DNA of 64,000 nucleotides from Prauserella halophila (GTDB taxonomy: Bacteria; Actinomycetota; Actinomycetes; Mycobacteriales; Pseudonocardiaceae): contig NZ_JAMTCQ010000009.1 in the NCBI RefSeq assembly GCF_024171895.1, positions 1,117,285-1,181,284 on the forward strand, read 5' to 3'. This document shows, piece by piece, positions 35,532 to 51,653 of the stretch. Both the position numbers and the translations under genes were made by a program. Positions within the stretch are counted from its first letter, which is position 1. Each line of letters opens with the position of its first letter. The notes under the pieces are model-generated. The model did no database searches. It worked only from the letters and a program-made list of their open reading frames with translations, and had not been told where the DNA came from.

Positions 35532-35556
35532 GAACCACCGGGCGCCCTGGCGCTAC
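35532..35556 (+). promoter_or_regulatory. ECF-sigma promoter GAACC-N15-GCTAC for the immunity genes
   Basis: GAACC at 35532-35536, exactly 15 bp, GCTAC at 35552-35556. The same bipartite motif stands before the sigma gene and the ABC-system operon, and equals the motif described for the planosporicin sigma factor PspX (established knowledge, recalled). The start of transcription should be near 35563, 57 nt before the permease ATG. Confidence 0.85.
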
Positions 35557-35619
35557 GTACCTGTCATCGCGTCGTACCGACGGCACGGGAAGCAAACGGT
35601 GCGGGAGGAGCACGAGCAC

Positions 35620-36429
35620 ATGAGCACGTCGACAGTCGCCGGACCATCGAGCGGATCGCAATGGCGGGACCACCCGGCGATCGCCACGGTCGTCCGCGTG
35701 GAGCTGATGCGGCTACGGCACGGTTTCCTGTTCTGGTATGCGTTCCTGGCGCCCATCGTGGCCGCCGTGCCGTTGTACATCGGTTCAGCGGGCTCGGCGG
35801 AGGCCGAGTCGGGACGGTACTGGGAGGTCTTCCGGGACGTATCGCTCGAACTCTGGGGCGTTCTGGTTCCGATCACCGCCGGGCTCATGGCTGCGCTCTC
35901 GGTGCGCGCCGACCACGACGCATGGCGGTTGATGTTCTCCTACGCCGTGCCGCGAAGCCGGTATTTCGTCGGCAAGGTGGTGGCTCTCGCGCTGCTTCAG
36001 TTGTTCTCCACCGCGATCCTCGCAGTGCTACTCGGCATCGGTGCCGCGCTGCAGGGAAGGCTGATCGACGACGGCATGACGGTTCTCGGTGGGGCGCTTC
36101 TGCCGTGGGTGGCTGGGCTCGGCACCGTCGCGGTGGCCGTCTACGTGGCGATGCGGTGGGGGCTCGGGGCCGCGATCACGCTCGGCGTGGCCGGAATGCT
36201 GTGCGGGGCGTTGATCTCGGACAAGGACTTCTGGTTCGCGGTCCCGATGGCGTGGCCGATGCGCGTGATCCTACCGCTAGCCGGTATCGGGCCGAACGGT
36301 GTGCCGCTACCGCCCGACAGTCCGCTTCGTGACATGGGTGCGGTGCCGGTCGCGCTGGTGCTGTCCGCTCTCCTGGCGGCGGTCGCGCTGGTCCTGGGCG
36401 GGCATTACCTCAAACGCAAGCAGATCTAG
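35620..36429 (+). CDS. Lantibiotic immunity ABC transporter permease (LanE type)
   Basis: 269 residues, six hydrophobic segments, ABC-2 architecture: RVELMRLRHGFLFWYAFLAP at the start, PRSRYFVGKVVALALLQLFS in the middle and HYLKRKQI at the end. The N-terminal pattern is that of MutE/EpiE/SpaE-type self-protection permeases. GGGAGGAG 11 nt before ATG 35620. It works with the next gene to expel lanthipeptide from the membrane. Driven by the ECF promoter at 35532. Confidence 0.85.
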   Translation: MSTSTVAGPSSGSQWRDHPAIATVVRVELMRLRHGFLFWYAFLAPIVAAVPLYIGSAGSAEAESGRYWEVFRDVSLELWGVLVPITAGLMAALSVRADHDAWRLMFSYAVPRSRYFVGKVVALALLQLFSTAILAVLLGIGAALQGRLIDDGMTVLGGALLPWVAGLGTVAVAVYVAMRWGLGAAITLGVAGMLCGALISDKDFWFAVPMAWPMRVILPLAGIGPNGVPLPPDSPLRDMGAVPVALVLSALLAAVALVLGGHYLKRKQI

Positions 36430-36504
36430 TCGCGGCGCTGCGTGCTCACGAGCGTGCCGTCGCCGACCTACCAGCCGACAACCGATACTTCCGGGAGGAA
36501 TCCG

Positions 36505-37221
36505 ATGAACACCGCACTGCGGGTCTCCGGTGTGGCCAAGCATTTCGGGGCTCACCGAGCGCTGGACGGAGCCGATGTCTCCGTTCCGACCGGACACGTC
36601 TACGGGCTCCTCGGGCCGAATGGTGCGGGCAAGTCCACGCTGATGAAGATCATCCTCGGTCTGCAACGGCCGACTGCCGGAGAGATCGAGGTGTTCGGCA
36701 TGCCGCACCACGGTAGGGCTCGATGCGATATCGGAGCGCTGATCGAGACGCCCGGTCTCTGGCCAGGGCTGGACGCGCGCACTCATCTGCGCGCACACGC
36801 GAAACTCCGTTGTGTGCCGGAAAGCTGGATCGAATCGGCACTGGACACGGTCGGGCTCCGTGGCGTCTCGGGGCGCAAGGTGGGGCAGTTCTCGCTGGGG
36901 ATGCGCTGGCGGCTGGGTATCGCGATCGCCTTGCTCGCCAAACCGCAACTGCTGTTGCTCGACGAGCCGACCAACGGACTCGATCCGATCGGCATTCGGG
37001 AGATGCGCTCCACGATCCGAGGCCTTGCCGATATGGGCGTGACGGTGCTCGTCTCCAGTCACCAGTTGGCGGAGATCGCCCAGATCTGCGACGACGTGGG
37101 TGTTCTCGTCGACGGCCGCACGAGGTACGAGGGGGACGTGGAGGGCCTGGCCGCCGACGACGACCTCGAGGCGGGGTTCTTCCGTATCGTCGCCGAATCC
37201 GGCTCGACCGGAGTGCGGTGA
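36505..37221 (+). CDS. Lantibiotic immunity ABC transporter ATP-binding protein (LanF type)
   Basis: 238 residues. Walker A GPNGAGKST, Walker B LLLLDEPTNGLD and H-loop SSHQLAEI are intact. The signature is FSLGMRWRLGIA rather than LSGGQ, a peculiarity typical of lantibiotic-protection ATPases. GGGAGGAA before ATG 36505; 75 nt after the permease. With it forms the EF self-immunity pair (PspEF/MibEF-like). Confidence 0.87.
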   Translation: MNTALRVSGVAKHFGAHRALDGADVSVPTGHVYGLLGPNGAGKSTLMKIILGLQRPTAGEIEVFGMPHHGRARCDIGALIETPGLWPGLDARTHLRAHAKLRCVPESWIESALDTVGLRGVSGRKVGQFSLGMRWRLGIAIALLAKPQLLLLDEPTNGLDPIGIREMRSTIRGLADMGVTVLVSSHQLAEIAQICDDVGVLVDGRTRYEGDVEGLAADDDLEAGFFRIVAESGSTGVR

Positions 37222-37314
37222 GGGACCGGAAGCCCGAGGGCCGGGCGGTGCTCGGGACCTGCCGCGGTGGCCGGGCTGCAGGGCGGCTGGTGCGGACACC
37301 ATGATGCGGTTCGC

Positions 37315-38025
37315 CTACCCTGCGGTTCCGTATCGGTTCGTCGCGATCAGTGTTCTGAGTTCCGATCGACTGTCGACGTCGAGTCGATCATACAGCGAAC
37401 GAATCTTGCGGTACATTGTGCGCTCGGAACAAAAAAACTTGCGGGCGATGGATGAAACTGTTTCTCTGCCGCAAAGTAGTGTGATCAGAATGTCGGACTC
37501 GTGGTCGTGGTTCTGGTTCGGCGCTTCCGGTCGGTCCGAGGCGATGGAGGACCCCGCAGCCGTCTCCGCAAGTTTCGACCTCGCCTGGGTGATCGGAGTC
37601 GACGACTTGGCCGTTGTCCACGAGGGGCTTGCACTACTGCGGGCCAGGGACATCTGCAGTGTGCGAAACTGGTTATCCAGTGATATGGCCAGGTTGATGA
37701 CCTGAGAGGCGCCGCGCTTGATCGCCATGTAGGTCTGGTGGCCACTGTAATCGTCGACCACGGCGACGAGCGGGGAGACCGAGTAGCCGAGTTTTCCTCG
37801 CAATTCGGACAGGGTCTCAGCTTGCAGCTCGTTCGTGGCGGGCAGGAGGACGGGTCGGCCGTCGTCAACGAGCACGTCCAGTTGCTGAGTGTCGAAGAAT
37901 ATGACTCGAAATCCGAACTGTTCGAGTGGCAGTGCCGACGAATCCCCTGTGACGTTACTCAGGTGCTCGTGCACTCGAATCGAGCAGTCGGGACATAGAC
38001 ACGCAGCGTCATCGCGGTTCAACAC
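37315..38025 (-). CDS. LuxR-type transcriptional activator of the lanthipeptide cluster
   Basis: 236 residues with a C-terminal helix-turn-helix (DILITLLCGRETVSSIARKF, FCSERTMYRKIRSLYDRLDV, SRSELRTL). The N-terminal domain has a receiver-like ending (YSGHQTYMAIKRGASQVINL) but no obvious phospho-acceptor Asp pocket, so it is probably an orphan regulator. The start carries a CLCPDC cysteine cluster. By position it equals PspR/MibR, essential activator in the planosporicin and NAI-107 systems. GTG 38025 overlaps an inverted repeat. The base composition is visibly lower in GC than the neighbours. Confidence 0.75.
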   Translation of the reverse strand: MLNRDDAACLCPDCSIRVHEHLSNVTGDSSALPLEQFGFRVIFFDTQQLDVLVDDGRPVLLPATNELQAETLSELRGKLGYSVSPLVAVVDDYSGHQTYMAIKRGASQVINLAISLDNQFRTLQMSLARSSASPSWTTAKSSTPITQARSKLAETAAGSSIASDRPEAPNQNHDHESDILITLLCGRETVSSIARKFFCSERTMYRKIRSLYDRLDVDSRSELRTLIATNRYGTAG

Positions 38026-38039
38026 TTCCCCCAGTGTTG
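38020..38039. promoter_or_regulatory. Inverted repeat over the activator start
   Basis: CAACACT (38020-38026) and AGTGTTG (38033-38039) separated by TCCCCC. It covers the GTG and the ribosome site of the LuxR-type gene, a place where binding or a hairpin would limit its translation or transcription. AT-rich -10-like TATAG elements follow at about 38050-38080. Confidence 0.45.
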
Positions 38040-38256
38040 GTCGACCATCTTCTATAAGATTGATTCATGCTATAGGGGGAGTTGAAACGTGTCAATTGAC
38101 AATTGGTTTACCGACGTTTCGGGTGGTGATGATCCGGCGCAGGCGGCTGGCGCGTTCGGGGATTCTCCCGTGGTAGTGGTAATAACTCGCGGTGGCTGCT
38201 GAATCAGGAGAGTTCAAAGTTCACCGGAAAGGTGGAACGTCGCCGTGGAATGCGGT

Positions 38257-38646
38257 TCAGTCGTTGCACAGTGCGACGGCCTTGCTCCGAAGTGCACCGA
38301 GACTGATCGGTTCCCCGTTCGCTCCATCGGCCCGAAGCGGGGCGATGTCGGGGTGGTCGGCGTCGGCGGCACGCTCGTTGAGCGCATAGGTTTCTCCGTC
38401 CGGTGCGGTGAACAGTGCCCGGTCGGGCTTCTCACACGCGATCGTTCCGCTGTGTACGGTCAGCGGCCAGATGTGCCCTATGTTCTTTTCGCCGATCTGC
38501 TGCCGGCCGTGCTCCGCCGGAGGCGCGGGCTCGGGATCATCGATCGCCGGATCCTCGCGGCCGGCACCCCCGCCGCATGCACCGATTAATGCCACGGCCG
38601 CCAACAGCATGCTGCCCACTGCGCCGTGGGCCGTCCACCGTGTCAT
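38257..38646 (-). CDS. Lipoprotein, DUF2511-like (PspQ/MibQ-like)
   Basis: 129 residues. Lipoprotein signal MTRWTAHGAVGSMLLAAVAL with lipobox IGAC (Cys24), a Pro/Asp/Glu linker, then a small domain: EKNIGHIWPLTVHSGTIACE, LFTAPDGETYALNERA, LRSKAVALCND with a likely disulfide. Matches DUF2511 in pattern. ATG overlaps the upstream ABC stop (ATGA). In the planosporicin-type clusters a lipoprotein (Q) is thought to help immunity by binding the antibiotic outside. Confidence 0.75.
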   Translation of the reverse strand: MTRWTAHGAVGSMLLAAVALIGACGGGAGREDPAIDDPEPAPPAEHGRQQIGEKNIGHIWPLTVHSGTIACEKPDRALFTAPDGETYALNERAADADHPDIAPLRADGANGEPISLGALRSKAVALCND

Positions 38647-39527
38647 GACGCCACCGCCGAATCTTCGGAATCGTTCTGCAACAACGCGACGTAACCGTCT
38701 TCGAGGCTCGGATCGACCAACCGGGCTCCGGGAACCGGGGCCGGGCTGACGACGCGGTAGTCCGTGCTGCCTGTCTGGGTGACGGCGTTGACGACGGTGG
38801 CCTCCGGTGGGACGGCGACACCGGGGGGTACGTGGTAGGTGTGGCCCGCCGCTGCGGAGGTGAGTCCGCTCGTGCTTCCGTGGTAGGCGAGCCGTCCCCC
38901 GGCGAGGACGGCCACATCGGGGCAACTTTGTGCCACGTCGTCGAGGATATGGGTGGACAGTAGGACGATCCGCAGGCCGGACAGGCTCGCCAACAGCGAG
39001 CGGAATCGCATGCGTTCGTGAGGATCGAGTCCGGCTGTCGGTTCGTCGACGATGAGGAGGTCCGGGTCGCCGAGCAGCGCCTGCGCGATCCCGAGTCGGC
39101 GCTTCATCCCACCCGAATAGGTGCTGATGCGCTCGCCTGCGAGTTCGGCCAGGCCGACCTGATCGAGCAGGTCGCCTGTCTGGCGCCTCCGTTCGGCCTT
39201 GCTGCCGATGCCCTTGAGCAGTGCGATGTAGTCGAGGAACTCGGCGCCGGTCAGCTCAGGGTAGAGGGCGAGTTCCTGGGGCAGATACCCGAGAATGTGC
39301 TTGACCGCCCTCGCGCCGGTACGGGTGGTGACGTCGTGTCCGCCGACGAGGATACGTCCGGACGTCGGTTTCAACACGGTCGTCAGCATGCGCATCAAGG
39401 TGGTCTTGCCCGCGCCGTTGGCGCCGAGCAGGCCGATCATGCCTTCGCCGATCTCGAGATCGAGGCCGTCGAACACGCGCTTACCGCCGCGGTAGGTCTT
39501 GGTCACCCCGCTGAGTGCGATCTCCAT
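38643..39527 (-). CDS. ABC transporter ATP-binding protein of the JYZQ-like operon
   Basis: 294 residues. Walker A GANGAGKTT, signature YSGGMKRRLGIAQ, Walker B LLIVDEPTAGLDP, H-loop LSTHILDDVA, plus a C-terminal extension (about residues 215-294) seen in drug-export ATPases. AAGGAG 8 nt before the ATG. Third ABC gene of an operon starting at the ECF promoter 41029-41053. Probably an accessory immunity or export system. Confidence 0.85.
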   Translation of the reverse strand: MEIALSGVTKTYRGGKRVFDGLDLEIGEGMIGLLGANGAGKTTLMRMLTTVLKPTSGRILVGGHDVTTRTGARAVKHILGYLPQELALYPELTGAEFLDYIALLKGIGSKAERRRQTGDLLDQVGLAELAGERISTYSGGMKRRLGIAQALLGDPDLLIVDEPTAGLDPHERMRFRSLLASLSGLRIVLLSTHILDDVAQSCPDVAVLAGGRLAYHGSTSGLTSAAAGHTYHVPPGVAVPPEATVVNAVTQTGSTDYRVVSPAPVPGARLVDPSLEDGYVALLQNDSEDSAVAS

Positions 39528-39562
39528 GGGTCGTCTCCTTAGTCCTCGGCCGAAGCCCGAGG

Positions 39563-40357
39563 TCAGTGCCGTGCGGCGAGTCGGATGTTGGTGATCGAGA
39601 GCAGTAGCGCCGCCACCGCCAGCACGACGAGCACTTGCAGCGTCGCCGTTCCGCCACTGACCACGGGTCGTAGCACGCCGTCCAGCCCGTACGTCGCTCC
39701 GGTCTGCGGCGCATGCAGCCATGCCGCGGCCGGGTACCTCCCGAGAGGGGAGAGCACAGTTCCGGTGACCGTCGGCACCGGCAGGATTGTGGGGTTGAGG
39801 ACCGTTGCCCAGATCCATGCGACGACCGTGATGGCACGGGCGAAGGCGGCGGGCATCAGAACACCGAGCAAGGTCGCGAAACTGGCCAGGACCACACTCG
39901 CGGGCAAGATGATCACCGCGGCGGCCACGAGCCCAGCGACGAGAGCGGATGCGGATCCGGTTTCGATCGCGATCGTGACGACCAGCGTGCAAAATCCGAT
40001 CAGCGGAACGGCGAGCGCGACCGCGAGCGAGCCCAGGAAAGAGCCGACGAGGCGAACCGACCCACGCGCGGCCGTGGCATCGAGTAGATCCGTGAGCCCG
40101 GAACGCCGATGGATCCTCAGCCTGTCCGTCAGGCCGACGGCGACGCCGACGGTGCACAGGAGCGAGAAGACGATCGCCGTCTCGGCGACCCGCCGCACCG
40201 GATCGGCATTGCCGACGACTTGTTCGGATGTGAGTGCCAGCAAGACGGCCAGTAGGGTCAGCGGAGTCAGCGCCCACCACAGCATCCTGCCGCGTGCCGC
40301 CATGAGCGCCTCGTACCGTGCTGTCGCCACGAGCGTTCGGGACATGACGGTGGTCAT
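39563..40357 (-). CDS. ABC-2 type permease, second subunit
   Basis: 264 residues, six hydrophobic segments. The start MSRTLVATARYEALMAARGR resembles permeases of the ABC-2 group. Segments near LVAGLVAAAVIILPASVVLA and LQVLVVLAVAALLLSITNI are membrane-spanning. The ATG overlaps the stop of the preceding gene (ATGA), and 35 bp separate it from the ATPase gene, so one operon. Partner of the neighbouring permease and ATPase. Confidence 0.75.
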   Translation of the reverse strand: MTTVMSRTLVATARYEALMAARGRMLWWALTPLTLLAVLLALTSEQVVGNADPVRRVAETAIVFSLLCTVGVAVGLTDRLRIHRRSGLTDLLDATAARGSVRLVGSFLGSLAVALAVPLIGFCTLVVTIAIETGSASALVAGLVAAAVIILPASVVLASFATLLGVLMPAAFARAITVVAWIWATVLNPTILPVPTVTGTVLSPLGRYPAAAWLHAPQTGATYGLDGVLRPVVSGGTATLQVLVVLAVAALLLSITNIRLAARH

Positions 40358-41019
40358 GGGGCGACCTCCGTTCGCCGGTCGGCCCCGGGGACTCCGGCCG
40401 TCCGGAACCGAATCAGTGCCCAGATCGTCGCGGTGGTCCCCACGAGTACGGGGACCACGAGGCGGGCACCGCCGTCGCCGAGAAGTCGCTCGAGGATCAG
40501 CACCTGTCCGAGCCAGACGCCGACCACGACCGCCGAGGCGCCCGCTGCGGACCGGAGCGCGGCGCCCCCGGCCGCTCCTGCACCGACCAGTAACACCGAC
40601 GAGCACCAGGCGAGCGTGAAGAACCGGCCCACGTGCGTGGTGGGTTCGATCAGTCCTGTGGTGAGGGCCGCGAGAACGGCACCGGCCGTGACGAGGCCAC
40701 CTGCGACCGCGAGCCGACGTGCGATCGTGCGGGGGTAGGGATGCGGCACGCTCGCGTGCAGTTCCGGTGCGGGCTCCGCCGTCACCACGCTCGCTGCCGG
40801 CATCACGGCGAGGATCGGGAACAGGGTGCCCGCGACCAGCTGGTGCCACGACACGTCGACCACAGCCGCGGTGACGACCGCCAGGATCGCGGCGACCGGC
40901 GGCAGGGCGAACGCCGCTCGGCCGCAGTGCCGTGCGTCGTAACCCCACAGCGTCCAGCTCCACCGTCTCGGGGCCTGTCCCGCCGAGCCGTGTGTTCGAT
41001 GTCCCCACAGCGAGTGCAT
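40354..41019 (-). CDS. ABC-2 type permease-like membrane protein, first subunit
   Basis: 221 residues from ATG 41019, with about six hydrophobic segments (FALPPVAAILAVVTAAVV, HQLVAGTLFPILAVMPAASV, VLLVGAGAAGGAALRSAAGA, LVVPVLVGTTATIWALIRF). The start is uncertain. An ECF-type promoter at 41029-41053 predicts a nearly leaderless mRNA beginning beside ATG 41019. A longer frame from GTG 41055 has GGAG upstream but overlaps the promoter -35. Read-through from the anti-sigma gene could use the longer start. Confidence 0.65.
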   Translation of the reverse strand: MHSLWGHRTHGSAGQAPRRWSWTLWGYDARHCGRAAFALPPVAAILAVVTAAVVDVSWHQLVAGTLFPILAVMPAASVVTAEPAPELHASVPHPYPRTIARRLAVAGGLVTAGAVLAALTTGLIEPTTHVGRFFTLAWCSSVLLVGAGAAGGAALRSAAGASAVVVGVWLGQVLILERLLGDGGARLVVPVLVGTTATIWALIRFRTAGVPGADRRTEVAP

Positions 41020-41028
41020 GTTCGGTAC

Positions 41029-41053
41029 GTAGCACCGAGATCGGTCGCGGTTC
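41029..41053 (-). promoter_or_regulatory. ECF-sigma promoter GAACC-N15-GCTAC for the ABC operon
   Basis: On the minus strand GAACC (41053-41049), 15 bp, GCTAC (41033-41029). The spacing is identical to the other two sites. It lies between the anti-sigma gene and the first permease and would give the JYZQ-like genes their own induced transcription. Confidence 0.8.
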
Positions 41054-41075
41054 ACGGTTCGCTCCGAACGACGTG

Positions 41076-41969
41076 TCAGTGCATCGGACGCGGCACTCGC
41101 AGGCGCAGCACCGCGACCGCGAGCAGGGCCACGCCGAGGGCCAGGACGAGAGGAGATGTGCTCCACAGCGTCGAGACCGCGGAGTGCAGCGGTAGTCCCG
41201 ACGCGGCCGGAACACTGCTGGTCGCCCCGAGGAGCCATGCGAGGCCGCCGGTCAATACTCCCAGTACCGGGGACCGTCCGACGGCGAACACGAGCGCGAT
41301 GCCCGCGGTCAGCAGTGCCTGGCCGAACCAGCTCGCGAGCAGCGATGGCAGGTCGTCGGCCGCGCCGAAGAGCCTCACGAGCGCCGAACACGCCGTGGCG
41401 ATCGCCAGGTCGATGCCGAGCACGCCGACCACCCGGCAGGTGAACACGGTCGGCGGCGATATCGGCAGGGCGACCAGCGCTTCGGTCCGCGGGTCGCGGT
41501 TCTGGGACGAGGTCGTCAGCACCCCTGTCAGCACGACCAGAACCACGAGGGCACTGAAGACGTGCTCGGCCAGGCCGTTCCCGGGAAGTGCCAGGGCGAG
41601 CCCGACGGCGGCGGCGAACCCGAGTGCGCTGACCGGCCCCAGTGCGCCGGGCAGCAGGCGCACCTGCGCGGCGACGAGTGCCGAGACGAGCCGAAGGGTT
41701 TCCCGCGGTGTTCTCCGGGGGACGGGGTCCGCCGCGACCGGGCTCGCGGTGGGCAGTGCGGCTCGGACCGATTCGAACGACGGAACACGCAGATCGGCGG
41801 CGGACTCGGCCGCGACGACCCGGCCGGCGTCCGAGAGTTTCCGCATCGCCGCGAAGCGTTGCCGGCAATCCGCGCAATTCCGGAGATGCTCGTCGGCCGG
41901 AAGCGCGTCCGCCGTCGCGTCGGTCCTCCGCAAAGCGTCGAGAAGCCGTTCGTCATCCCAATGCGTCAT
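41076..41969 (-). CDS. Membrane anti-sigma factor (PspW/MibW-like)
   Basis: 297 residues. The N-terminal zinc-finger anti-sigma motif has His28, Cys32 and Cys35 in HLRNCADC. After a linker come six hydrophobic segments, many more than a usual single-span anti-sigma factor; the later ones resemble ABC-2 permease helices. Overlaps the sigma gene stop (ATGA), so produced in matched amounts. It should hold the sigma factor at the membrane until envelope damage or lanthipeptide is sensed. Confidence 0.8.
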   Translation of the reverse strand: MTHWDDERLLDALRRTDATADALPADEHLRNCADCRQRFAAMRKLSDAGRVVAAESAADLRVPSFESVRAALPTASPVAADPVPRRTPRETLRLVSALVAAQVRLLPGALGPVSALGFAAAVGLALALPGNGLAEHVFSALVVLVVLTGVLTTSSQNRDPRTEALVALPISPPTVFTCRVVGVLGIDLAIATACSALVRLFGAADDLPSLLASWFGQALLTAGIALVFAVGRSPVLGVLTGGLAWLLGATSSVPAASGLPLHSAVSTLWSTSPLVLALGVALLAVAVLRLRVPRPMH

Positions 41970-42559
41970 CGCCGTCTCCCTTCCGGCAGCGCCGTGTCGT
42001 GCTCACCACGTCCGACCTGTTGTGCAGCGCTTGCCAGCCGCTTCTTCGCGTGTGCCATCCGGCTCTTCACCGTGCCGGCGGGGATACCGAGCACGCGTGC
42101 GATGTCGCCGTACGGCAACTGCTCCACGACGACGAGGTCGACCACGTCGCGCAGATGGTCCGGAAGCTCGCGGATCGCAGCGACCACGTCGTCGAACTCC
42201 ATCGCGGAGATCACCCGATTCTCGACGTCCGGCCCGGACTGCGCCACGTCGACGGTCTCGTCCAGTTCGACCGTCGAGACCGAGGCGCGACGCAGCCGGT
42301 TGTGCGCCTGACGGCGCGCGACACCCAGTAGCCACGCACGTGCCGAGGCGTCGCCGCGGAAGGCTGCCGCGGACTGCCACACCGCCAGCCAGGACTCCTG
42401 CAGTATCTCTTCGGCCTCGGCACGGTCCGAGGTGAGTCGTCGGATGAGCCGGAGCATCGCGGCCGCGTGGCCCTGATACAGCGCGGCCAACGCGTCCTCG
42501 TGCCCATCGGCAACCCTGGCCAGCAGTCCTGCATCGGAGCGGGTCCCCGGCTCGCTCAC
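41966..42559 (-). CDS. ECF RNA polymerase sigma factor (PspX/MibX-like)
   Basis: 197 residues. Region 2: ALYQGHAAAMLRLIRRLTSD, EAEEILQESWLAVWQSAAAF, ARAWLLGVARRQAHNRLRR. Region 4: AIRELPDHLRDVVDLVVVEQ, LPYGDIARVLGIPAGTVKSR with the HTH. The GTG at 42559 follows GGAGAGG; a GTG at 42604 would start almost at the predicted transcript end of its own ECF promoter (42613-42637). It should recognise GAACC-N15-GCTAC. Confidence 0.9.
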   Translation of the reverse strand: MSEPGTRSDAGLLARVADGHEDALAALYQGHAAAMLRLIRRLTSDRAEAEEILQESWLAVWQSAAAFRGDASARAWLLGVARRQAHNRLRRASVSTVELDETVDVAQSGPDVENRVISAMEFDDVVAAIRELPDHLRDVVDLVVVEQLPYGDIARVLGIPAGTVKSRMAHAKKRLASAAQQVGRGEHDTALPEGRRR

Positions 42560-42612
42560 GTCGTTTCCCTCTCCTTGCGTCGCAGTGCTCTGCGAACTGT
42601 CCACCGTTGTAC

Positions 42613-42637
42613 GTAGCGCGCGAAGGCGGTGCGGTTC
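42613..42637 (-). promoter_or_regulatory. ECF-sigma autoregulatory promoter GAACC-N15-GCTAC
   Basis: On the minus strand GAACC (42637-42633), 15 bp, GCTAC (42617-42613). Transcription would start near 42606, 47 nt before the GTG of the sigma gene, giving positive autoregulation once the anti-sigma releases the factor. Confidence 0.85.
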
Positions 42638-42822
42638 ACGGTGTCCTGTCGACGGACTGACTTTCCTGCCATCCGACGGCGTCGGCCTTGCCCCCGGGGC
42701 CGGCCGGTTGCTTGTGTGAGCTTGCTTCGCAGTACCTGATCAGGCCCTACCAGGAGTGAAGCACACCGAATGCGCGGCGTCGGGGGACGACCGGCGTCGT
42801 GTCGATCATCGAGGAGGTAAAG

Positions 42823-42996: not shown

Positions 42997-43010
42997 CACG
43001 CAGGGTTGCT

Positions 43011-43058: not shown

Positions 43059-43095
43059 GATTCCACCGTCCATCTCGTCGAGAACGGGGTGCACC

Positions 43096-46000
43096 ATGAC
43101 TGACCGCTCGTCGGCCGAAGGGCTGTTCCGAGCCTGGGATTTCTATCTCTGGCGTGCACCCGTCGGAGCCGATCGCCCGGGGTTGCACGGCGATGTGCCG
43201 TGCGTACGTGACACCGGCGCACACCACGAGATCGTGAAGCGGGCGAGTGGTGACGCCCGGCTCATGGAGGCCATCACTGTGGCAAGCCCGAGCCTGGCGG
43301 AATTCGTGCGCAGGATCGCGGCGGAAGGAACCGACACGGCCAAGCCTTCGCGACTCCGACGAGCCGCCTTCGCCGTCTTACGTTACGACCTGAGAATGCG
43401 CAGTCGGCCGACGCCGTTCGGGTTGTTCGCCGGCATCGCCTGCGGTGACTTCGCCACCGCTCCCGACCCGACCGAGCTCCCGTACGTCGCCGTTCCGGCT
43501 GCTCCCACCACGCGCACGCAGGTCGACATGCAATGGTTGCTCGCCGCGTTGCGCCCGGTGGAGGAGCGTGCAGGAGACCTGCCCGGGCTCAGGGTGCAGG
43601 CGCATCCCGCCGCGCGGGTGCGTGGTGACCGGCTGGTGCTGGACTGCGCCTCGACGTTCGGACAGGCTCCGTCGAGTACCAGCCGGGCATCCGTATCGGT
43701 CCGGTACACCGAACCGGTGCGCCGGGCGTTGGAACTCGCGGAGCGCCCGGTCGCTCTCGGTGTCCTGACCGAGGCGTTGACCGAGCGATTCGGCGCAGCG
43801 GTGTTGCCGCGCGTGCGTGGTCTGCTCGATTCGCTTGTCGCCCAGGAAATCCTGCTCACCGAGCTCCGTCCACCGTTGGACGGTGACGACCCGCTGGCGC
43901 ACGTGATGCGCGTTCTCGACGGCGCCGCGATATCCCTGCCGGAGCAACCGGCCGCGCTGCTCGACGCCCTGAGGGGCCTGGAGGCGAGGATCGCGACCTA
44001 CGATCGGGCGTCCGCAGGAACGGGTGTAGCGGAGCTGGCCGAGGCCGCTTCCGCCGCGCGAGAAGTGAGCGAGCATCCGACACCACTACATGTCGACACG
44101 TGCCTCACCGCGGGCACGGTGTTGCCGCGTGCGGTCGCGGAGGAGGTGGAACGCGGGGTCGAGCTGATGTGGCGCATGTCGACACCGAAGCTGGGGTTGT
44201 ACTCACTGCGTGACTATCACCTGCGGTTCCTGGAACGCTACGGCACCGACCGGCTCGTTCCCCTGCTCGACCTCATCGACGGGGATACGGGCCTCGGTCC
44301 GCCGCCGGGATACTCCTGGCCGAACAGCGAGATGCCGGAAGACACGGCGGAGGCCGAGCCGGATAGGGACCGCAGCCGGACGTTACATCTGCTACTGGCC
44401 ACTGCGCTGCGGGAGAGCAAGCGTGAGGTCGAACTGGACGACGACACGGTGAACGCGCTGTGTCGCGGCGCCCCGACAGTTGCGGACCTGCCCAACTCGT
44501 GCGAGGTGACGGTCCACGTGACCGGTGTGTCGTCGCGGGCAGTGGCGGAGGGCGAGTTCCTCGTGACGCTGTCGCCCAGCCCCGGATCCCACCAGGCAGG
44601 GTCGACGTTCACCCGGTTCGCGAGGGCACTCGGCGGTTACCAGGACCGGCTCGTGGGTGCTGCGACCGCCGTGCCCACGCATGTCGTGGGCGCGCGCCGT
44701 GCCGACATCGCCTTTCTGCCTCGGTCGGGCAAGGCCGCGAACCTGGCCCACACCGCTCCCTCGACGGGGACGCGGATCGGCGTGGGCTTGTTCCCTTCTC
44801 CCCACGCCGATGAGGTGACTCTCTCGGACATCGCGGTCGCGGCGACACTGGAGCGGTTGTGTGCGGTGCACGTACCGAGCGGCCGGGAGGTCACGCCGAT
44901 CCTGGCCAACATGGTCAGTACCACCGCGCAGGCTCCGAATGCAGCGCGGTTGCTTTGGGAGATCGGCTTGGAAGGTCAACGGCTGTGGGAGCCGTGGAAA
45001 TGGGGAACGCTCGCCGACTCGCCGTTTGTGCCCCGCGTCCGGTACGGCCGCTTCGTATTGGCACCGGCGGTGTGGCGGCTCGACGAGCTCCGGGACTCGC
45101 TCGACAGTCCGGAATGGACAACAGCCGTCGCGGTGTGGCGGGATCGCTGGACGGTCCCTCGGCGGGTGCTTGCCGTGAGCAACGACCAACGTGTCGAACT
45201 GGACCTGGACGAGCCGTGGCACGTCGAACTGCTGCGCGAGGAGCTACGTAAGGCCCCCGGGCTCGTGGCGCACGAGATCCCCGGTTCGGCTCATGTCGAC
45301 GACGGGGATGTCCCGGTCGGCAGCTCGGCCGAGTTCGTGGTCCCGCTGCAACGGCGTGAGGCCGTGCCCCGGCGCAGCGTCACTCCTGCACACCGGGAGG
45401 AGCGGGCGGCCGTGCACGGACTGGGTGGACGCTGGTTGTATCTCAAGCTCTACGGTACGGCGAGCGGCCAGAACGAACTGTTGCGCACGCGGCTCGGCGA
45501 ACTGGTCGACACCGCTCGTGCCCGGGGCGCGGAACGCTGGTTCTTCCTGCGTTACACCGACCCGGACGGCCACCACCTGCGGCTGCGGCTCACGGCCGAC
45601 ACCGCGGTGCTGTGGCAGGACATCGTTCCTGCGTTGGGTCCGGTGTTGGAGCGTTGGCAGCACGAGGGGCTGCTCCGGACACACCGCGTCGACGAATACG
45701 ACCCCGAGTTCGAACGCTACGGCGGTGCCGAACTGGCCCCGTGGGTCGAGGAGCTCTTTCATGCCGACAGTATGGCGGCGGTCGATTTGCTGACCCTCGC
45801 TGCCGATCCGGAATGCCCTTACGACATCGACACGATGGCCGCCATGTCCGTGTCGTTCCTGGCCCACACGTTCGGAACGCCAGCCGTGCCGCACTCCGGG
45901 GACGACGTCGGCCGGGTGCAGGATCCGGCCGAGGTGTGGATGTCCCGGACCGGAACACGCCGTGAACTCCCAGAGCGGTTCCGACGGGATCCCGCCTACT

Positions 46001-46299
46001 GGGCGGAGCTGATTGATCCTCTGGGCGGGAGTCCGCGGCTGCGGGGAGACGTGTTCGGCGACAAGATCCTGGCCGCGCTGCGTGGGCGGGACGAGGCTGT
46101 CGCCGTCACAAGGCGGGCTATGGACGTTTTCCGCGCCGACGGTGCATGCCGGTCGGACGAAGGCCGGTTCGTCGGAAGCCTGATGCATATGACGTGCAAC
46201 CGCCTCCTCGGCGGCGACAGCGAGCGCGAACGGGACGTGGTGGCGTTGGCACGCGGGTGCGTGCAGGACGCGGCACGGAGAAGGAGGCACCGCGGATGA
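43096..46299 (+). CDS. Class I lanthipeptide dehydratase LanB
   Basis: 1,067 residues: full-length LanB with the glutamylation domain (YDLRMRSRPTPFGLFAGIAC near residue 100, then NMVSTTAQAPNAARLLWEIG and VPRVRYGRFVLAPAVWRL) and the C-terminal elimination domain (GGRWLYLKLYGTASGQNELL, WFFLRYTDPDGHHLRLRL, RVDEYDPEFERYGG). It uses glutamyl-tRNA to activate Ser/Thr of the core and then eliminates glutamate to form Dha/Dhb. 99 nt after lanA with only a weak GAACGG site before the ATG, so it depends on read-through. Overlaps lanC by 4 nt. Confidence 0.93.
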   Translation: MTDRSSAEGLFRAWDFYLWRAPVGADRPGLHGDVPCVRDTGAHHEIVKRASGDARLMEAITVASPSLAEFVRRIAAEGTDTAKPSRLRRAAFAVLRYDLRMRSRPTPFGLFAGIACGDFATAPDPTELPYVAVPAAPTTRTQVDMQWLLAALRPVEERAGDLPGLRVQAHPAARVRGDRLVLDCASTFGQAPSSTSRASVSVRYTEPVRRALELAERPVALGVLTEALTERFGAAVLPRVRGLLDSLVAQEILLTELRPPLDGDDPLAHVMRVLDGAAISLPEQPAALLDALRGLEARIATYDRASAGTGVAELAEAASAAREVSEHPTPLHVDTCLTAGTVLPRAVAEEVERGVELMWRMSTPKLGLYSLRDYHLRFLERYGTDRLVPLLDLIDGDTGLGPPPGYSWPNSEMPEDTAEAEPDRDRSRTLHLLLATALRESKREVELDDDTVNALCRGAPTVADLPNSCEVTVHVTGVSSRAVAEGEFLVTLSPSPGSHQAGSTFTRFARALGGYQDRLVGAATAVPTHVVGARRADIAFLPRSGKAANLAHTAPSTGTRIGVGLFPSPHADEVTLSDIAVAATLERLCAVHVPSGREVTPILANMVSTTAQAPNAARLLWEIGLEGQRLWEPWKWGTLADSPFVPRVRYGRFVLAPAVWRLDELRDSLDSPEWTTAVAVWRDRWTVPRRVLAVSNDQRVELDLDEPWHVELLREELRKAPGLVAHEIPGSAHVDDGDVPVGSSAEFVVPLQRREAVPRRSVTPAHREERAAVHGLGGRWLYLKLYGTASGQNELLRTRLGELVDTARARGAERWFFLRYTDPDGHHLRLRLTADTAVLWQDIVPALGPVLERWQHEGLLRTHRVDEYDPEFERYGGAELAPWVEELFHADSMAAVDLLTLAADPECPYDIDTMAAMSVSFLAHTFGTPAVPHSGDDVGRVQDPAEVWMSRTGTRRELPERFRRDPAYWAELIDPLGGSPRLRGDVFGDKILAALRGRDEAVAVTRRAMDVFRADGACRSDEGRFVGSLMHMTCNRLLGGDSERERDVVALARGCVQDAARRRRHRG

Positions 46300-47786
46300 G
46301 CACATCGGCGACGACATCACAGGCGACATCGGTTTCGTCGAGCACGGACGAAGCGCAGTCGAGGAGGCGTGTCGGGAGGACGGAACCGGAACCACCGATC
46401 AGTGAAGCCGATCGGGTCCGGGCGGAGGAAGCCGTGAACGCCGTGGCCAATCGACTCGCGGATCCCGACCGGATCGCGGCGATCGCCGGCAGGGAGGACA
46501 ACCGGGATCCTATCTATGACACCGTCATGTGGGCGCCTGCCACACTGTCGAACGGATGGCCCGGTGTGGCGACCTTCTTCGCGGAGCTCGCGGCGCGTGA
46601 CACAGAGACGACATCGTGGTGGGCGGCGGTCGCCCATGAGCACCTCGCTCGCGCAGGATCAGCCCTCGACGGGGTTCCGCATCGTGGCATGTACGCGGGA
46701 CCGGCGGCTGTGCTGTCGGCCGCGCAGACCGCAGCCGGGGCGGCAGGTCACTACGGTGGGCTCCGTAGCAAGCTCGCCGAGTGGCTGGCCGATACGGTAC
46801 TGACGCGGCTGGAGCACGAACGACAGCGTGCTGACGGCGACGGTGTCGATTGGTTCTCCTATGATCTGATCAACGGGCTCGCCGGTTCCGGTCGGCTGCT
46901 GCTCGACGCTGCGCAGGATTCCGGGGAGACGGGTCCACGGGTTCGTCGGGCGTTGGACGGCACCTTGCGCCACCTGGTACGGCTCGCTCGGCCGATCACG
47001 GTGCACGGGCACCGAGTGCCCGGCTGGTGGGTTCCGGCGGCGTCGCAACCTACCGAGCGTGACCGCGGCGACTATCCCGACGGTGACTTCAATCTGGGGC
47101 TCGCGCACGGTGTCCCCGGTCCACTCGCTGTTCTCGCCCACGCCGTCCGAATCGGGTACGAAGTGGACGGTCAACGGGATGCGATCGCGGAAATGGTGGA
47201 GTGGCTGCGTGGTTGGCGACTGTTCGACGATGCCGGACCGTATTGGCCGTGCAGGGTGAGCTTCGCCGAGGAAACCGCGGACCATCGCATGACCACGAGC
47301 GAGTTCACCCGCACAGCGTGGTGTTACGGGGCGCCGGGGGTGGCCGTCGCTCTGCACGCTGCCGGCACCGCGCTCGGCGAGCCCGAATGGATCGACGAGG
47401 CGGTATCCGCATTGCGCGCGGCACTTGAACGGGACGAATCGTCCTGGGCGATCGACGGGCCCACCATCTGCCACGGGTACGGCGGGCTACTCGCGATCTG
47501 TACCGATATCGGCAGATCGACCGGTGATGCGGCCCTGTTGCGGGGTACCGCACGGCTGGTGCGTTCGGTACTGGACACCGCCGACGATGCGCGGCCGTTC
47601 GTGTTCCCGCATCTGATGCGGTATCCGCGTGCCCAACAGAGTCCCGGGCGTGTTTGCAGATCAGTGGATGTGGCAGGGCTTCTGGAAGGTGCCGCCGGAG
47701 TCGCCGCGGCGCTGGTCCCCTTCTCCGGCGAGGCGGGTCGACGAAAGGGAGGTCCGCTGTGGCATCGCTGCCTGGGCCTGTCGTGA
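46296..47786 (+). CDS. Lanthipeptide cyclase LanC
   Basis: 496 residues, longer than the usual 400 because of a Ser/Thr/Glu-rich N-terminal extension. The toroidal repeats end in GxxG motifs. The zinc ligands are visible: Cys343 in WCYGAPG, Cys392-His393 in ICHGYGG; His271 in LAHGVPG is the likely acid/base. It adds Cys thiols to Dha/Dhb to close the five rings. ATGA overlap with lanB; the ABC gene start lies inside its 3' end. Confidence 0.92.
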   Translation: MSTSATTSQATSVSSSTDEAQSRRRVGRTEPEPPISEADRVRAEEAVNAVANRLADPDRIAAIAGREDNRDPIYDTVMWAPATLSNGWPGVATFFAELAARDTETTSWWAAVAHEHLARAGSALDGVPHRGMYAGPAAVLSAAQTAAGAAGHYGGLRSKLAEWLADTVLTRLEHERQRADGDGVDWFSYDLINGLAGSGRLLLDAAQDSGETGPRVRRALDGTLRHLVRLARPITVHGHRVPGWWVPAASQPTERDRGDYPDGDFNLGLAHGVPGPLAVLAHAVRIGYEVDGQRDAIAEMVEWLRGWRLFDDAGPYWPCRVSFAEETADHRMTTSEFTRTAWCYGAPGVAVALHAAGTALGEPEWIDEAVSALRAALERDESSWAIDGPTICHGYGGLLAICTDIGRSTGDAALLRGTARLVRSVLDTADDARPFVFPHLMRYPRAQQSPGRVCRSVDVAGLLEGAAGVAAALVPFSGEAGRRKGGPLWHRCLGLS

Positions 47787-48739
47787 GCGAGTGCGGGGTG
47801 GGTGATGGCGCTGCCGAGCACCCGGCCGTGGAGATCGAGAACCTTGTGGTCCGCTACCCGTCGGTGCTGGCTGTCGACGGCCTTTCGCACATCTGTCCCT
47901 CCGGCCGGATTACGGCGCTGCTGGGTCCCAACGGCGCGGGAAAGTCGAGCGTCCTCGGTGCGGTGAGCACTGCCGTACCGGCCGACTCGGGAGAGATTCG
48001 GATCTTCGGTCATGACCTGCGGCGCCGAGCAACCGCGGCGCGGGCGCGGCTGGGTCTGGTGTTCCAGGAGCGCACGCTGGACAAGGACCTCTCGGTACAA
48101 CGAAACCTCTGGTTCCACGCGCGGCTGTTCGGGATGGGCAAGGCGGACGCCCGTGAACGGATCGACCGAGTGCTCGCGGTGTTCGGCCTGGGAGACCGGC
48201 GCAACGACGACGTCCAGAAACTCTCGGGTGGTTTGGCCCGGCGTGTGGAGGTCGCCCGCGCGCTGTTGCATCGCCCGGGCCTGTTGGTTCTCGACGAGCC
48301 GACGACCGGCCTGGATCCGGAGGCACGGTGGCAGGTCTGGCAGGACCTGCGGAGGATGCGGACCGAGTTCGGGGTCAGCATTCTGTTCTCCACCCATTAC
48401 ATGGACGAGGCCGAGTTCGCCGACGAGATTGCGATCATCAACGAAGGCAAACTGGTGCGGCACGGATCCGCCGATGAATTGAAGCTCAGTCTCGGGAGTT
48501 CCAGCGTGCTGGTGCGCACGGAGGACGACGCGGCGGCGTTGGCGAACCTGAGCGCGGCGGGTCACGATGTCCGGTTCGACGCTCCCGGGCTCGTCGTGCG
48601 GTGTGCGGAGCCGGAGAAGGCCATCGCCCAGGTTGTCGCGTCGACGGGCACAGGAGTCCTTGAGGCATCGGTTCGTCACCCGACGATGGACGATGTGTAC
48701 CTGTCGGTCACGGCAGGTTCCGGGGGTGATCGGAAGTGA
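47759..48739 (+). CDS. ABC exporter ATP-binding protein (PspT/MibT-like)
   Basis: 326 residues. Walker A GPNGAGKSS, signature LSGGLARRVEVARALLHRP, Walker B LLVLDEPTTGLDP, H-loop FSTHYMDEAEFAD, and a C-terminal DrrA-type extension. GTG 47759 is preferred for its GGGAGG 6 nt upstream, overlapping lanC by 28 nt. A second GTG at 47783 (GTGA overlap) is the alternative. Probably exports the modified peptide with the next gene; it lacks the C39 peptidase domain of classical LanT. Confidence 0.87.
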   Translation: MASLPGPVVSECGVGDGAAEHPAVEIENLVVRYPSVLAVDGLSHICPSGRITALLGPNGAGKSSVLGAVSTAVPADSGEIRIFGHDLRRRATAARARLGLVFQERTLDKDLSVQRNLWFHARLFGMGKADARERIDRVLAVFGLGDRRNDDVQKLSGGLARRVEVARALLHRPGLLVLDEPTTGLDPEARWQVWQDLRRMRTEFGVSILFSTHYMDEAEFADEIAIINEGKLVRHGSADELKLSLGSSSVLVRTEDDAAALANLSAAGHDVRFDAPGLVVRCAEPEKAIAQVVASTGTGVLEASVRHPTMDDVYLSVTAGSGGDRK

Positions 48740-49587
48740 ACATGAGCACGGTTCACCACCGGTCTACGACGCGGCCGCCGGACTCTGCAGCCGATGTGGA
48801 TGCGCCCGAGCACGGTGCGGTCAGTGCGACGAGGGCGATCGTCGTGATCGCGCAGCGTGACTTGATCCGGCAGGTCAAGCATCCTGGGATGCTGGTGAGC
48901 CAGGCCATGCAGATGGTGTTCATCGTGGTGATCTTCGGTGTCGGTTTCAACAGCATGATCCGGCCCAGCGATGGACTTCCCTTCAGTGCCTACGTGTTCC
49001 CCGGCATCATCGCGATCCAGGTTGTGACGGTCGGCATCAACTCCGGTCTCGGGTATGCATGGGACCGCGAGTTCGGTGTGTTGCGGGAGATGCTCGTCGC
49101 GCCCGCGCCGAAGATGTGCCTTCCTGTCGGCAAGATCTTCGCGACGGGCACCGTGGTGTGTGTGCAGAGCGCGATCATGTTGTTGCTGTCCCCGATACTC
49201 GAGGTACCGCTGACACCGGCCGGTTTCGCGTACGGGACCGCGGCCTACACGTTCGTCGGCATTGTCTTCTCCTCGATCGGGCTCCTCCTGGCGACCGCGA
49301 TCACACGGATCCAGACGCTGCAGTCCAGTGTGTCCCTAGCGACATTCCCGATGCTGTTCCTGTCGGGATCGGTTTTCCGGCCGGACGATCTCCCCGCATG
49401 GCTCAGTGGACTCATCACGGTCAATCCGATGAGTTACGGCGTGGATCTGGTTCGACACCTGTTGCTGAACGCCGCCGGCACCGGGGTCCCGGGCAGCGGC
49501 CTGGCTCACCCGCTGGTTGATTTTGCGGTGTTGTGCGGGTTCCTCGTCGCTGGGTTCACGGCTATCCGGATCAGGGTGGGCAGATGA
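48736..49587 (+). CDS. ABC-2 type exporter permease (PspU/MibU-like)
   Basis: 283 residues, six membrane segments: LVSQAMQMVFIVVIFGVGFN, YVFPGIIAIQVVTVGINSGL, AIMLLLSPILEVPLTPAG, FVGIVFSSIGLLLATAITR, and the DrrB-like RPDDLPAWLSGLITVNPMSY. The GTG overlaps the upstream stop. Forms the export complex with the ATP-binding protein. No cluster protease was found, so leader removal must use a host enzyme before, during or after export. Confidence 0.87.
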   Translation: MNMSTVHHRSTTRPPDSAADVDAPEHGAVSATRAIVVIAQRDLIRQVKHPGMLVSQAMQMVFIVVIFGVGFNSMIRPSDGLPFSAYVFPGIIAIQVVTVGINSGLGYAWDREFGVLREMLVAPAPKMCLPVGKIFATGTVVCVQSAIMLLLSPILEVPLTPAGFAYGTAAYTFVGIVFSSIGLLLATAITRIQTLQSSVSLATFPMLFLSGSVFRPDDLPAWLSGLITVNPMSYGVDLVRHLLLNAAGTGVPGSGLAHPLVDFAVLCGFLVAGFTAIRIRVGR

Positions 49588-50603
49588 CATTCGTTGCTTC
49601 CGGTGCGGGACATTCGGGTGATTCGTCGTCAAGGCGATCGGGCCGAGAGCGGCGCGGCGAGCTCGACGAGTCCGTGGACGAGGACCGGCTCGCGTTGTCG
49701 GCGCTCGAGTGGTTGCACGCTCAGCGCCGGTGGTTCGATCCTTGCTATTGGGAGGAATACCTACCCGCCCGGCGGTTTCGGCCGGGCCCGCTTCTCGAGT
49801 TGATCGTGTTGCTCCGGTGCGTAAGCCGTGGCCCGTACGCTCAGTATGCCCGGGCGCTGACGGAATCCGGCTTCGCGTTGGCCGAGTCGGTCTGCCGGTG
49901 GAAGTCTTTTCGCCAGGGTCTGCAGCGCTGGGATGAGACGTTTCCCTACTTCGCGTACTTCACCGCGGTTCTCGAAGCTGCAGGGCGAGATGCCGGTCCG
50001 GCACTGGACGCGGTGGAGACTGCCCTCGCACTCGGGTGCGGAGATGTCTCGGCCGCGGATCGTCCGGCCCTGACCAGGCTCGAATTGGCGTATGTGACGG
50101 ACCTCGGCGGATTCAGCACCGTGCCGGTCGAGTGGTCCGATGCTGTCGAGCTGTATCGGACCAGTATAGCCGGGACGCGTGACAACACGCTGTTCATGCG
50201 CGACGATGAAGCCTACGCGTTAACGCACGTGCTCTTCTATTTGTCTGATTTCGGTTCACGGGCGTTGCCCTTGCCGGCACCGGTCGAGGCTGATCGGGTG
50301 CGTGATCAGGTGTCGGTGCTGCTCGGCTCGTGCCTGGCCCGCGATGACCTCGATCTCGCGGGTGAATTCCTGCTGTGTGCGGAAACGTTGGGATCGGCAG
50401 ACGATCCGTTGGTCGCGCACGGATGGCATCGGCTCGCCGCTGCCCAACATGACGACGGAGCGGTGCCGAGCCCGCTGTACAACCCGCACACGGCTGCGAT
50501 GCTCGAGGGCGCGAAGCGGTCGGCGTATCTGTTCGGCACGTGTTTCCACACGACGATGGTGGCGATCATGGCGTCATCGGAACGGCGGCGGCATGCCAGG
50601 TAG
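49584..50603 (+). CDS. Helical protein of the lanthipeptide operon (possible PspV/MibV position)
   Basis: 339 residues, mostly helical, no membrane span; start ATG overlaps the permease stop. Motifs: LSALEWLHAQRRWFDPCYW, LLELIVLLRCVSRGPYAQYA, ETFPYFAYFTAVLEAAGR, KRSAYLFGTCFHTTMVAIM. The overall pattern resembles DUF6895-type helical proteins; no enzymatic residues are evident. Co-translation with the biosynthetic genes says it acts in the pathway. By place it corresponds to the V gene of planosporicin/NAI-107 clusters, whose role I do not know. The end overlaps the next gene by 11 nt. Confidence 0.6.
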   Translation: MTFVASGAGHSGDSSSRRSGRERRGELDESVDEDRLALSALEWLHAQRRWFDPCYWEEYLPARRFRPGPLLELIVLLRCVSRGPYAQYARALTESGFALAESVCRWKSFRQGLQRWDETFPYFAYFTAVLEAAGRDAGPALDAVETALALGCGDVSAADRPALTRLELAYVTDLGGFSTVPVEWSDAVELYRTSIAGTRDNTLFMRDDEAYALTHVLFYLSDFGSRALPLPAPVEADRVRDQVSVLLGSCLARDDLDLAGEFLLCAETLGSADDPLVAHGWHRLAAAQHDDGAVPSPLYNPHTAAMLEGAKRSAYLFGTCFHTTMVAIMASSERRRHAR

Positions 50604-51216
50604 TGGTATCCGGCGGACGGGCACCACCGTCGACGTCGGCATCGGCGTGCTCGAGACGTGGCTGGAGTGTTCTCAGGTAGACGCCGATGCCGAGATCGGA
50701 CTGTGGTTGTGCCGAACCACCGCCGGTGTCGGTTCCGATTCGTACCCAAGACAGGATTCCGAGGCTGTGTTCGCACGCTGCCTGCTCGCAGACGTGCAGG
50801 CAGCCGGAGGCATCCCGGCGATTCCGGAGCAGCTGCTGTACGGCGATCCGCGGCACACGGCCGATCGCGTGACGCGGTGTGGCGTCGGGGGCGAACGGCG
50901 GGGGAGCGGAGCGTCGGACAGCCGGCCTCGCACCGTTCGTGTTCTGGAGGCGCTAGCCGTCAATGCCGTTCGTACACGGGACATCTCGGCGCTTGCCGCG
51001 CTCATCCGGGCGGCGCTGGTGTGGGGAGCGGATGGCCGGCACACGGTGCGGCGTGGGGTCGAGACGCTCGTTGCGGCCGTCGCGCCGGACGGCGGCGTGC
51101 TGCGTGACGACGAGGGCGGCTCCGGCAGTGGGCTGCCAACGGCCGTACAGGTTGCGTGGGCTCTGGTCGAATACCGGCGGCCCGGGTTCACACGCAACAT
51201 GTGGCGGGTCGCATGA
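50593..51216 (+). CDS. Second helical protein at the end of the lanthipeptide operon
   Basis: 207 residues, unrecognised. TVDVGIGVLETWLECSQVDA, RCLLADVQAAGGIPAIPEQL, LIRAALVWGADGRHTVRRGV and VQVAWALVEYRRPGFTRNMW suggest an alpha/alpha repeat like that of the preceding protein. ATG 50593 overlaps the previous stop by 11 nt. It may be a split or duplicated relative of the upstream gene. Last gene of the lanABCTUV arm. Confidence 0.55.
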   Translation: MPGSGIRRTGTTVDVGIGVLETWLECSQVDADAEIGLWLCRTTAGVGSDSYPRQDSEAVFARCLLADVQAAGGIPAIPEQLLYGDPRHTADRVTRCGVGGERRGSGASDSRPRTVRVLEALAVNAVRTRDISALAALIRAALVWGADGRHTVRRGVETLVAAVAPDGGVLRDDEGGSGSGLPTAVQVAWALVEYRRPGFTRNMWRVA

Positions 51217-51644: not shown

Positions 51645-51653
51645 TGCGCGACG

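Follow-up and report, generated by a model that had tools for sequence, protein, structure and literature searches.

A planosporicin-type lantibiotic gene cluster with a putative sugar-tailoring operon in Prauserella halophila

A class I lantibiotic gene cluster lies on a genomic island in the window, a 64,000-nucleotide stretch (C2:1117285-1181284) of the 5.05-Mb Prauserella halophila genome. The cluster is near certainly of the planosporicin/NAI-107 type and is a further, new member of the planosporicin group. A glycosyltransferase (GT) and a methyltransferase (MT) are encoded in one operon, immediately left of the range covered by an earlier annotation of this DNA (the original prediction). 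The product is probably (about 0.6) a planosporicin-type lantibiotic that is glycosylated and whose sugar is then O-methylated. Transfer to the peptide and the identity of the sugar are what we infer from the computed genes, motifs, island and co-occurrence. A tentative, narrower form of this reading places an O-methylated deoxyhexose on Tyr6 of ring A, attached by a family 2 (GT2) lineage whose relatives serve several classes of ribosomally synthesized and post-translationally modified peptides (RiPPs), namely class III lanthipeptides and daptides. The core change Tyr6 is ordinary; the sugar-tailoring operon is the distinguishing novelty of the cluster.

No glycosylated class I lantibiotic was recognised in the text available from the literature searched (including PMC8068269, PMC10373908, PMC7268733 and PMC10676316). 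A sugar on the N-terminal half, if true, would within that literature be a type of modification new to class I lantibiotics, and GT and MT would be a testable enzyme pair. NAI-107 is a late preclinical candidate (PMC10676316). Its potency is markedly lower without its two tailoring modifications (PMC4973701), so tailoring matters in this lantibiotic group.

Features that bear on this reading, with R-type boxes being putative sites of the LuxR-type regulator R:

33103..33182, no strand: direct repeat, left copy, imperfect; 3′ end of chromosomal gene 32544-33182
33183..52245, no strand: island of about 19 kb with the whole cluster; congener comparison
33210..34241, minus: GT, family 2 glycosyltransferase, GT-A fold; PF00535 (3.6e-20), DHDD and EDWDLW motifs kept in alignment
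34260..35408, minus: MT, MycE/TylE-type sugar O-methyltransferase; PF17843 MycE_N (8.2e-12)
35491..35505, minus: R-type box upstream of MT-GT; exact CTGCCA-N3-CTGCCA, about 80 bases from the MT start
42646..42671, plus: R-type box before lanA, degenerate; two mismatches to CTGCCA-N3-CTGCCA, 15-sequence alignment
42823..42996, plus: lanA precursor, 57 aa, core 42922-42993 VTSVSYCTPGCTSEGGGSGCSHCC; reading frame, Gallidermin and NCBIfam models
52168..52245, no strand: direct repeat, right copy; both copies align to one stretch of congener DNA (L077)

The GT-MT operon, its box and the island

By its domain and motifs, MT is a predicted MycE/TylE-type sugar O-methyltransferase. It matches PDB entries 3ssm (2.4e-68) and 8ia9, a demethylmacrocin O-methyltransferase (1.6e-66), and its DDGSH and IED motifs align with 3ssm. 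Both enzymes act on macrolide sugars. Entry 3ssm, listed as 'Methyltransferase', is MycE. The GT structure was modelled from eight sequences (predicted local distance difference test, pLDDT, 77.8; predicted template modelling score, pTM, 0.75) and matches GT-A enzymes (chondroitin polymerase, a fucosyltransferase and TDP-rhamnose-bound RmlT). The fold search did not separate peptide from wall acceptors. No SunS/ThuS-type S-glycosyltransferase was named among the 18 PDB sequence matches or the best 50 of 1468 fold matches. As expected for a glycosylated lanthipeptide, a glycosyltransferase gene lies inside the cluster, and it presumably serves LanA. Donors could plausibly be dTDP-sugars, since the genome encodes a dTDP-glucose 4,6-dehydratase at another site.

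GT-MT orthologues were found in three of 390 genomes of the family Pseudonocardiaceae, all three with a cluster of this type. The sister cluster of Saccharopolyspora sp. HNM0986 (L009/G366) and G367 has the same genes, GT-MT and a box before MT. Its GT is 57% identical to that of the window, and the family sequence that follows by E-value has 40%. Its MT is 62–64% identical (64% in L009 and its near-twin L063); the next by E-value reaches 48%, and shorter matches reach 51%. Identities of GT and MT to L009 are similar to those of LanB and LanC (63–64%). In a LanB tree (built without L015, which is on a 3.2-kb contig), the window and Saccharopolyspora form a pair (100/100) separate from the groups of Streptomyces and Actinokineospora. 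No GT match at 1e-10 was found in six congeners. Among the 14 genomes that carry the homologous loci L009-L022, that of L009 excepted, the GT match with the lowest E-value is 37% identical (G402) and on a different contig from its lanA.

An alignment of 15 sequences revealed a repeated CTGCCA upstream of lanA, and exact pairs (spacing 3–6) precede lanA in 11 of the 14 named loci. These loci contain 29 exact pairs: 19 before lanA, 7 before ORF2, 1 before MT and 2 elsewhere (L021 1794 and L017 12316). Across 22 loci that have no planosporicin-type cluster (380,435 bases), no exact pair occurs. This concentration before lanA, ORF2 and MT, and the absence from loci without the cluster, suggest that the box is the site of R. 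Exact CTGCCA-N3-CTGCCA occurs twice in the window (100 shuffles gave a mean of 0.00), and in L009 and L063 an exact pair lies about 90 bases before MT.

The flanks of five of the six congeners (G254-G258; G259 left out) match the window up to 33180-33186 and from 52611, with a gap of only 0.5–3.8 kb; the stretch from 33183 to about 52213 is thus additional in the window. The GT end lies 28 bases from the left island edge, which places GT-MT inside the island. The original prediction started the cluster at 35532 and so missed the operon (33210-35408), which belongs to the same island. Its unhalogenated, otherwise undecorated peptide stands in part. The tailoring genes of NAI-107 comprise a halogenase, a P450, a flavin reductase and LanD, and none of them was found among the island genes scanned with families (gene T was outside the family search). 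Because GT-MT lies in the island, has the box found before lanA and accompanies the cluster in Saccharopolyspora, a peptide with no other decoration is not the favoured outcome.

The two direct repeats align with a local score of 25.5; random pairs (up to 500) reached no more than 17. The island ends carry a copy of the gene 3′ end, an arrangement that resembles integration at a gene end. No integrase was seen in the island, which is proposed to be mobile or recombined.

Weighing a sugar on the peptide

The strongest hint that GT acts on peptides comes from the RiPP neighbourhoods of its relatives. Context was examined for all eight next relatives at E ≤ 1e-40; weaker ones (genus g30 and others) were left out. 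Seven of the eight have RiPP genes adjacent to them or no more than about 2 kb away: a class III lanthionine synthetase, NF038151 (G678); a daptide RiPP recognition element and dehydrogenase (G402, G679); the daptide intramembrane metalloprotease NF041824 (G610, G475, G459, with one gene of context on a 4.5-kb contig for G610); and an NF041824 match of 298, just below the cut-off of 300 (G525). The seven group with moderate support (87/98). The G402 cluster also encodes an NDP-hexose 2,3-dehydratase, and both G402 and G679 encode a DegT-type aminotransferase. Glycosyltransferases are among the accessory genes of daptide clusters (PMC10036551). The lineage may thus mark other glycosylated RiPPs. 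Two daptide clusters (L061, L093) with sugar-type genes and a GT relative were observed, possibly for glycosylated daptides.

Precedents for sugars occur in other lanthipeptide classes. Cacaoidin, a class V lanthipeptide, has an O-glycosylated Tyr and GT2 enzymes in its cluster (PMC8068269); its lanthionine enzymes differ from those of the window. NAI-112 carries a deoxyhexose N-linked to Trp (PMC8068269, PMC10676316) and, unlike the window, is made by class III enzymes.

An ordinary planosporicin-type lantibiotic without a sugar, with GT and MT acting on something else, is an unlikely reading. Streptomyces and Actinokineospora loci have the same core gene set in genomes without a close GT, and MycE-like enzymes are common in the family. 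Against it, GT-MT stands at the cluster in two genera despite different flanking genes, the same box precedes MT-GT in both, and close GT-MT orthologues occur nowhere else among the 390 genomes. A role for GT and MT in immunity, by modification of a wall glycan or lipid for producer self-resistance, is quite improbable. In sequence and structure the GT2 enzyme mostly matches wall and polysaccharide enzymes, teichoic acid transferases among them, and co-regulation with lanA would fit such a role. Against it, the enzymes nearest to MT act on macrolide sugars, and seven of the eight next GT relatives accompany RiPP enzymes of other classes. EF and JYZQ are already the immunity genes of this lantibiotic family (PMC4973701). 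A silent or decaying island without a product is very improbable: LanB occurs in just one of seven genomes of the genus and the corresponding site of G256 retains nothing but an ORF1 homologue, but the reading frames are open and the motifs intact.

Several observations weigh against a glycosylated product. Tyr6 is kept in 11 of 14 homologues and, among their genomes, a close GT is found only in that of Saccharopolyspora, so Tyr6 did not arise for glycosylation. The GTs of G366 and G367 are nearly identical; linkage of GT-MT to the cluster thus rests on two lineages. Family-wide GT and MT searches scored no more than the four or five leading candidates in each genome. The window GT and its Saccharopolyspora orthologues fall outside the RiPP-linked GT group, and the relative in G106 lies beside nonribosomal peptide synthetase and halogenase genes. 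PDB matches of GT are mostly polysaccharide and wall enzymes, and its model is moderate (pLDDT 44.9–77.8 over five models). MT relatives (36–51%) occur in 62 of 390 family genomes at 1e-30, the three orthologues included; one in congener G256 is 39% identical and on another contig, and the eight GT relatives have no MT relative next to them. No deoxysugar synthesis genes were found in the island. The lanA box is degenerate in the window and in three Actinokineospora loci, with no exact pair, and that of the window is weak by mismatch count (12 matches with ≤2 mismatches in the window, 6.2 expected). The second exact box of the window (48329-48343) lies inside gene T, probably by chance.

For the glycosylated lantibiotic, the following pathway is proposed. 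LanB would dehydrate LanA (seven dehydrations) and LanC would cyclise it inside the cell, with five thioether rings by analogy and the C-terminal carboxylate left free. Seven dehydrations would leave as free hydroxyl side chains Tyr6 and one Ser/Thr, which is presumably Thr12, after NAI-107. Tyr6, the only phenol, would be the likeliest sugar acceptor and the Thr12 hydroxyl the second. GT would place a sugar, with a deoxyhexose favoured, on the peptide, and the MycE/TylE-type MT would O-methylate the transferred sugar, both before export by TU. Sigma factor X, held by W, would drive E-F, J-Y-Z-Q and X-W from GAACC-N15-GCTAC promoters. The LuxR-type R would drive lanA from CTGCCA repeats and, in this Pseudonocardiaceae lineage, also the added MT-GT operon. 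EF (and JYZQ) would provide immunity. The leader would be removed by a protease, and the peptide would act on lipid II, by family analogy.

Precursor and homologous clusters

The lanA start codon (ATG 42823) is preceded by GGAGG. LanA consists of the leader MSAPVDETVETGEVDLFDLDLQVGFEATMANPA and the core VTSVSYCTPGCTSEGGGSGCSHCC. It scores 22.9 bits against Pfam Gallidermin (cut-off 21) and above cut-off for NCBIfam TIGR03731 and NF038155 ('FDLD family class I lanthipeptide'). A core had been placed at 42898-42993. That frame is real and reads EATMANPAVTSVSYCTPGCTSEGGGSGCSHCC, of which the first eight residues are leader; the core proper is 42922-42993.

A census of GTDB 220 species genomes, using TS[VI]S[LY]CTPG and E[VLI]DLFDLD as search patterns, gave 22 loci. 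Fourteen (L009-L022) are of this lantibiotic type, and eight (L023-L030) have different cores. Tyr6 is present in 11 of the 14 precursors (ten Streptomyces and Saccharopolyspora L009), and all three Actinokineospora precursors have Leu6. Tyr6 as a novel natural A-ring variant, as first proposed, was rejected on this count. Four Streptomyces loci (L010, L011, L012, L014) encode ITSVSYCTPGCTSEGGGSGCSHCC, which differs from the window core only by Ile1; their LanB proteins are 47–50% identical to that of the window, and GT matches in their genomes are ≤37% over part of the length. Saccharopolyspora L009 has Asn19 where the window has Gly, and its gene order differs: EF, only 34%/54% identical, is found at the opposite end. 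The first pattern is blind to Trp6, so the census may miss planosporicin itself.

A LanA match was found in seven of 390 family genomes, including the window, G366 and G367. One of them, G186, has a divergent precursor (L008) with the core ITSVVVCTPGCGPSVGTFCTACCC, and both an ECF (extracytoplasmic function) promoter motif and a CTGCCA box lie nearby. A class-wide LanA search matched one of 394 genomes, the window itself, and thus did not reach Planomonospora. Strings for the window core or the planosporicin core were absent from a literature text search, which found only the NAI-107 string, in three papers; planosporicin's own papers were outside that search.

The window core shares 22 of 24 residues with planosporicin, with differences at Val1 and Tyr6. 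In 2015 Maffioli and co-workers reportedly described planosporicin relatives with variation at positions 4, 6 and 14. Planosporicin (97518) of Planomonospora shares the gene set of the window cluster; it is not known to have the GT-MT operon or the ORF2-ORF1 pair of the window. The planosporicin core minus seven waters has a calculated monoisotopic mass of 2191.8 Da. One review gives 2194 Da (PMC10676316) and one table 2196 (PMC4539421), the latter not reconciled with the calculation. The unglycosylated window product, with seven waters lost, has a calculated mass of 2154.75 Da ([M+2H]2+ 1078.38); an O-methyl-deoxyhexose would raise it to 2314.82 Da (1158.42) and an O-methyl-hexose to 2330.82 Da (1166.42). 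Comparison with the NAI-107 precursor (PMC10715042) bears out the expected Ser/Thr/Cys pattern, and TS-S-CTPGCTS-GGGS-CS-CC is common to microbisporicin/NAI-107 and the window LanA. The two also share the ECF promoter consensus and X/W/R logic, and differ in that the window has sugar-tailoring genes and the NAI-107 tailoring genes were not found there.

Core genes, promoters and minor observations

The core genes and promoters are listed below; the names T, Q, W, Y and J were assigned from homologous clusters.

35532..35556, plus: ECF promoter before E-F; exact GAACC-N15-GCTAC
35620..36429, plus: E, immunity ATP-binding cassette (ABC) permease, MutE/EpiE-like; TIGR03732 (6.4e-30, 104 bits, below cut-off 145)
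36505..37221, plus: F, immunity ABC ATPase; PF00005 (1.1e-29)
37315..38025, minus: R, LuxR-type (GerE) regulator; PF00196 (0.0013, below cut-off), in 12 of 14 homologous loci
38257..38646, minus: Q, lipoprotein; lipobox-like LIGAC in translation, in 12 of 14 loci
38643..39527, minus: Z, ABC ATPase by Pfam; PF00005 (1.1e-31)
39563..40357, minus: Y, membrane protein, ABC permease by synteny; no Pfam match
40354..41019, minus: J, membrane protein by synteny; no Pfam match
41029..41053, minus: ECF promoter before J-Y-Z-Q; exact GAACC-N15-GCTAC
41076..41969, minus: W, anti-sigma factor candidate; Cys-rich N-terminus, membrane part and synteny, no Pfam match
41966..42559, minus: X, ECF sigma factor; PF08281, PF04542
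42613..42637, minus: ECF promoter before X-W; exact GAACC-N15-GCTAC
43096..46299, plus: LanB dehydratase; Lant_dehydr_N/C (1e-174, 1e-49)
46296..47786, plus: LanC cyclase; LANC_like (3e-49), WCYG and CHG present
47783..48739, plus: T, exporter ATPase; synteny, 13 of 14 loci
48736..49587, plus: U, exporter (ABC-2) permease; PF01061 (4.3e-25)
49584..50603, plus: V, DUF6895 protein; PF21836 (1.2e-65)
50593..51216, plus: K, protein after V, start uncertain; 35% to L009 and L064, weak or no match elsewhere, query begun upstream of the given start
51316..51585, minus: ORF1 (open reading frame 1), small conserved protein, start uncertain; 52–69% in L009-L012 and L014
51654..51956, minus: ORF2, small protein, signal-peptide-like N-terminus; 54–63% in seven named loci
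52094..52108, minus: R-type box upstream of ORF2-ORF1; one mismatch, exact in L009, L012, L016 and L017

Separate LanB and LanC adjoin an FDLD-type LanA, the arrangement of a class I lanthipeptide. The WCYG and CHG motifs of LanC have a role in zinc binding. EF, TU, JYZQ, R, X and W are all present as judged against the homologous loci; the 14 named loci repeat the gene set wherever the retrieved DNA extends far enough, and gene order varies in L009. These families and loci confirm the cluster type originally predicted from the sequence, together with its LanB, LanC, two-gene exporter, EF, sigma/anti-sigma, LuxR and lipoprotein genes. The predicted family, Pseudonocardiaceae, was also correct and is that of Saccharopolyspora sp. 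HNM0986 (G366).

The promoter consensus of the MibX regulon of microbisporicin is GAACC-N15-GCTAC (PMC4973701). It occurs exactly three times in the 64-kb window, before E, J and X (0.12 expected), and in 13 of the 14 named loci (missing from L022). The microbisporicin lanA promoter, TTGACA-N17-TCGACT (N16–18 tried), has no exact match in the window; this promoter is not known to be needed beyond microbisporicin.

The original right end at 51216 left out the ORF2-ORF1 pair (51316-51956). This pair also adjoins the cluster in Saccharopolyspora and several Streptomyces, with a CTGCCA box in front. At the island site, G256 retains a piece matching 51318-51546, the ORF1 homologue, so ORF1 may be older there. 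An exact CTGCCA box at L021 1794-1810 has no recognised ORF1 or ORF2 behind it. Right of the island, overlapping self-similar congener alignments at 55255-55522 point to a tandem repeat within a predicted reading frame.

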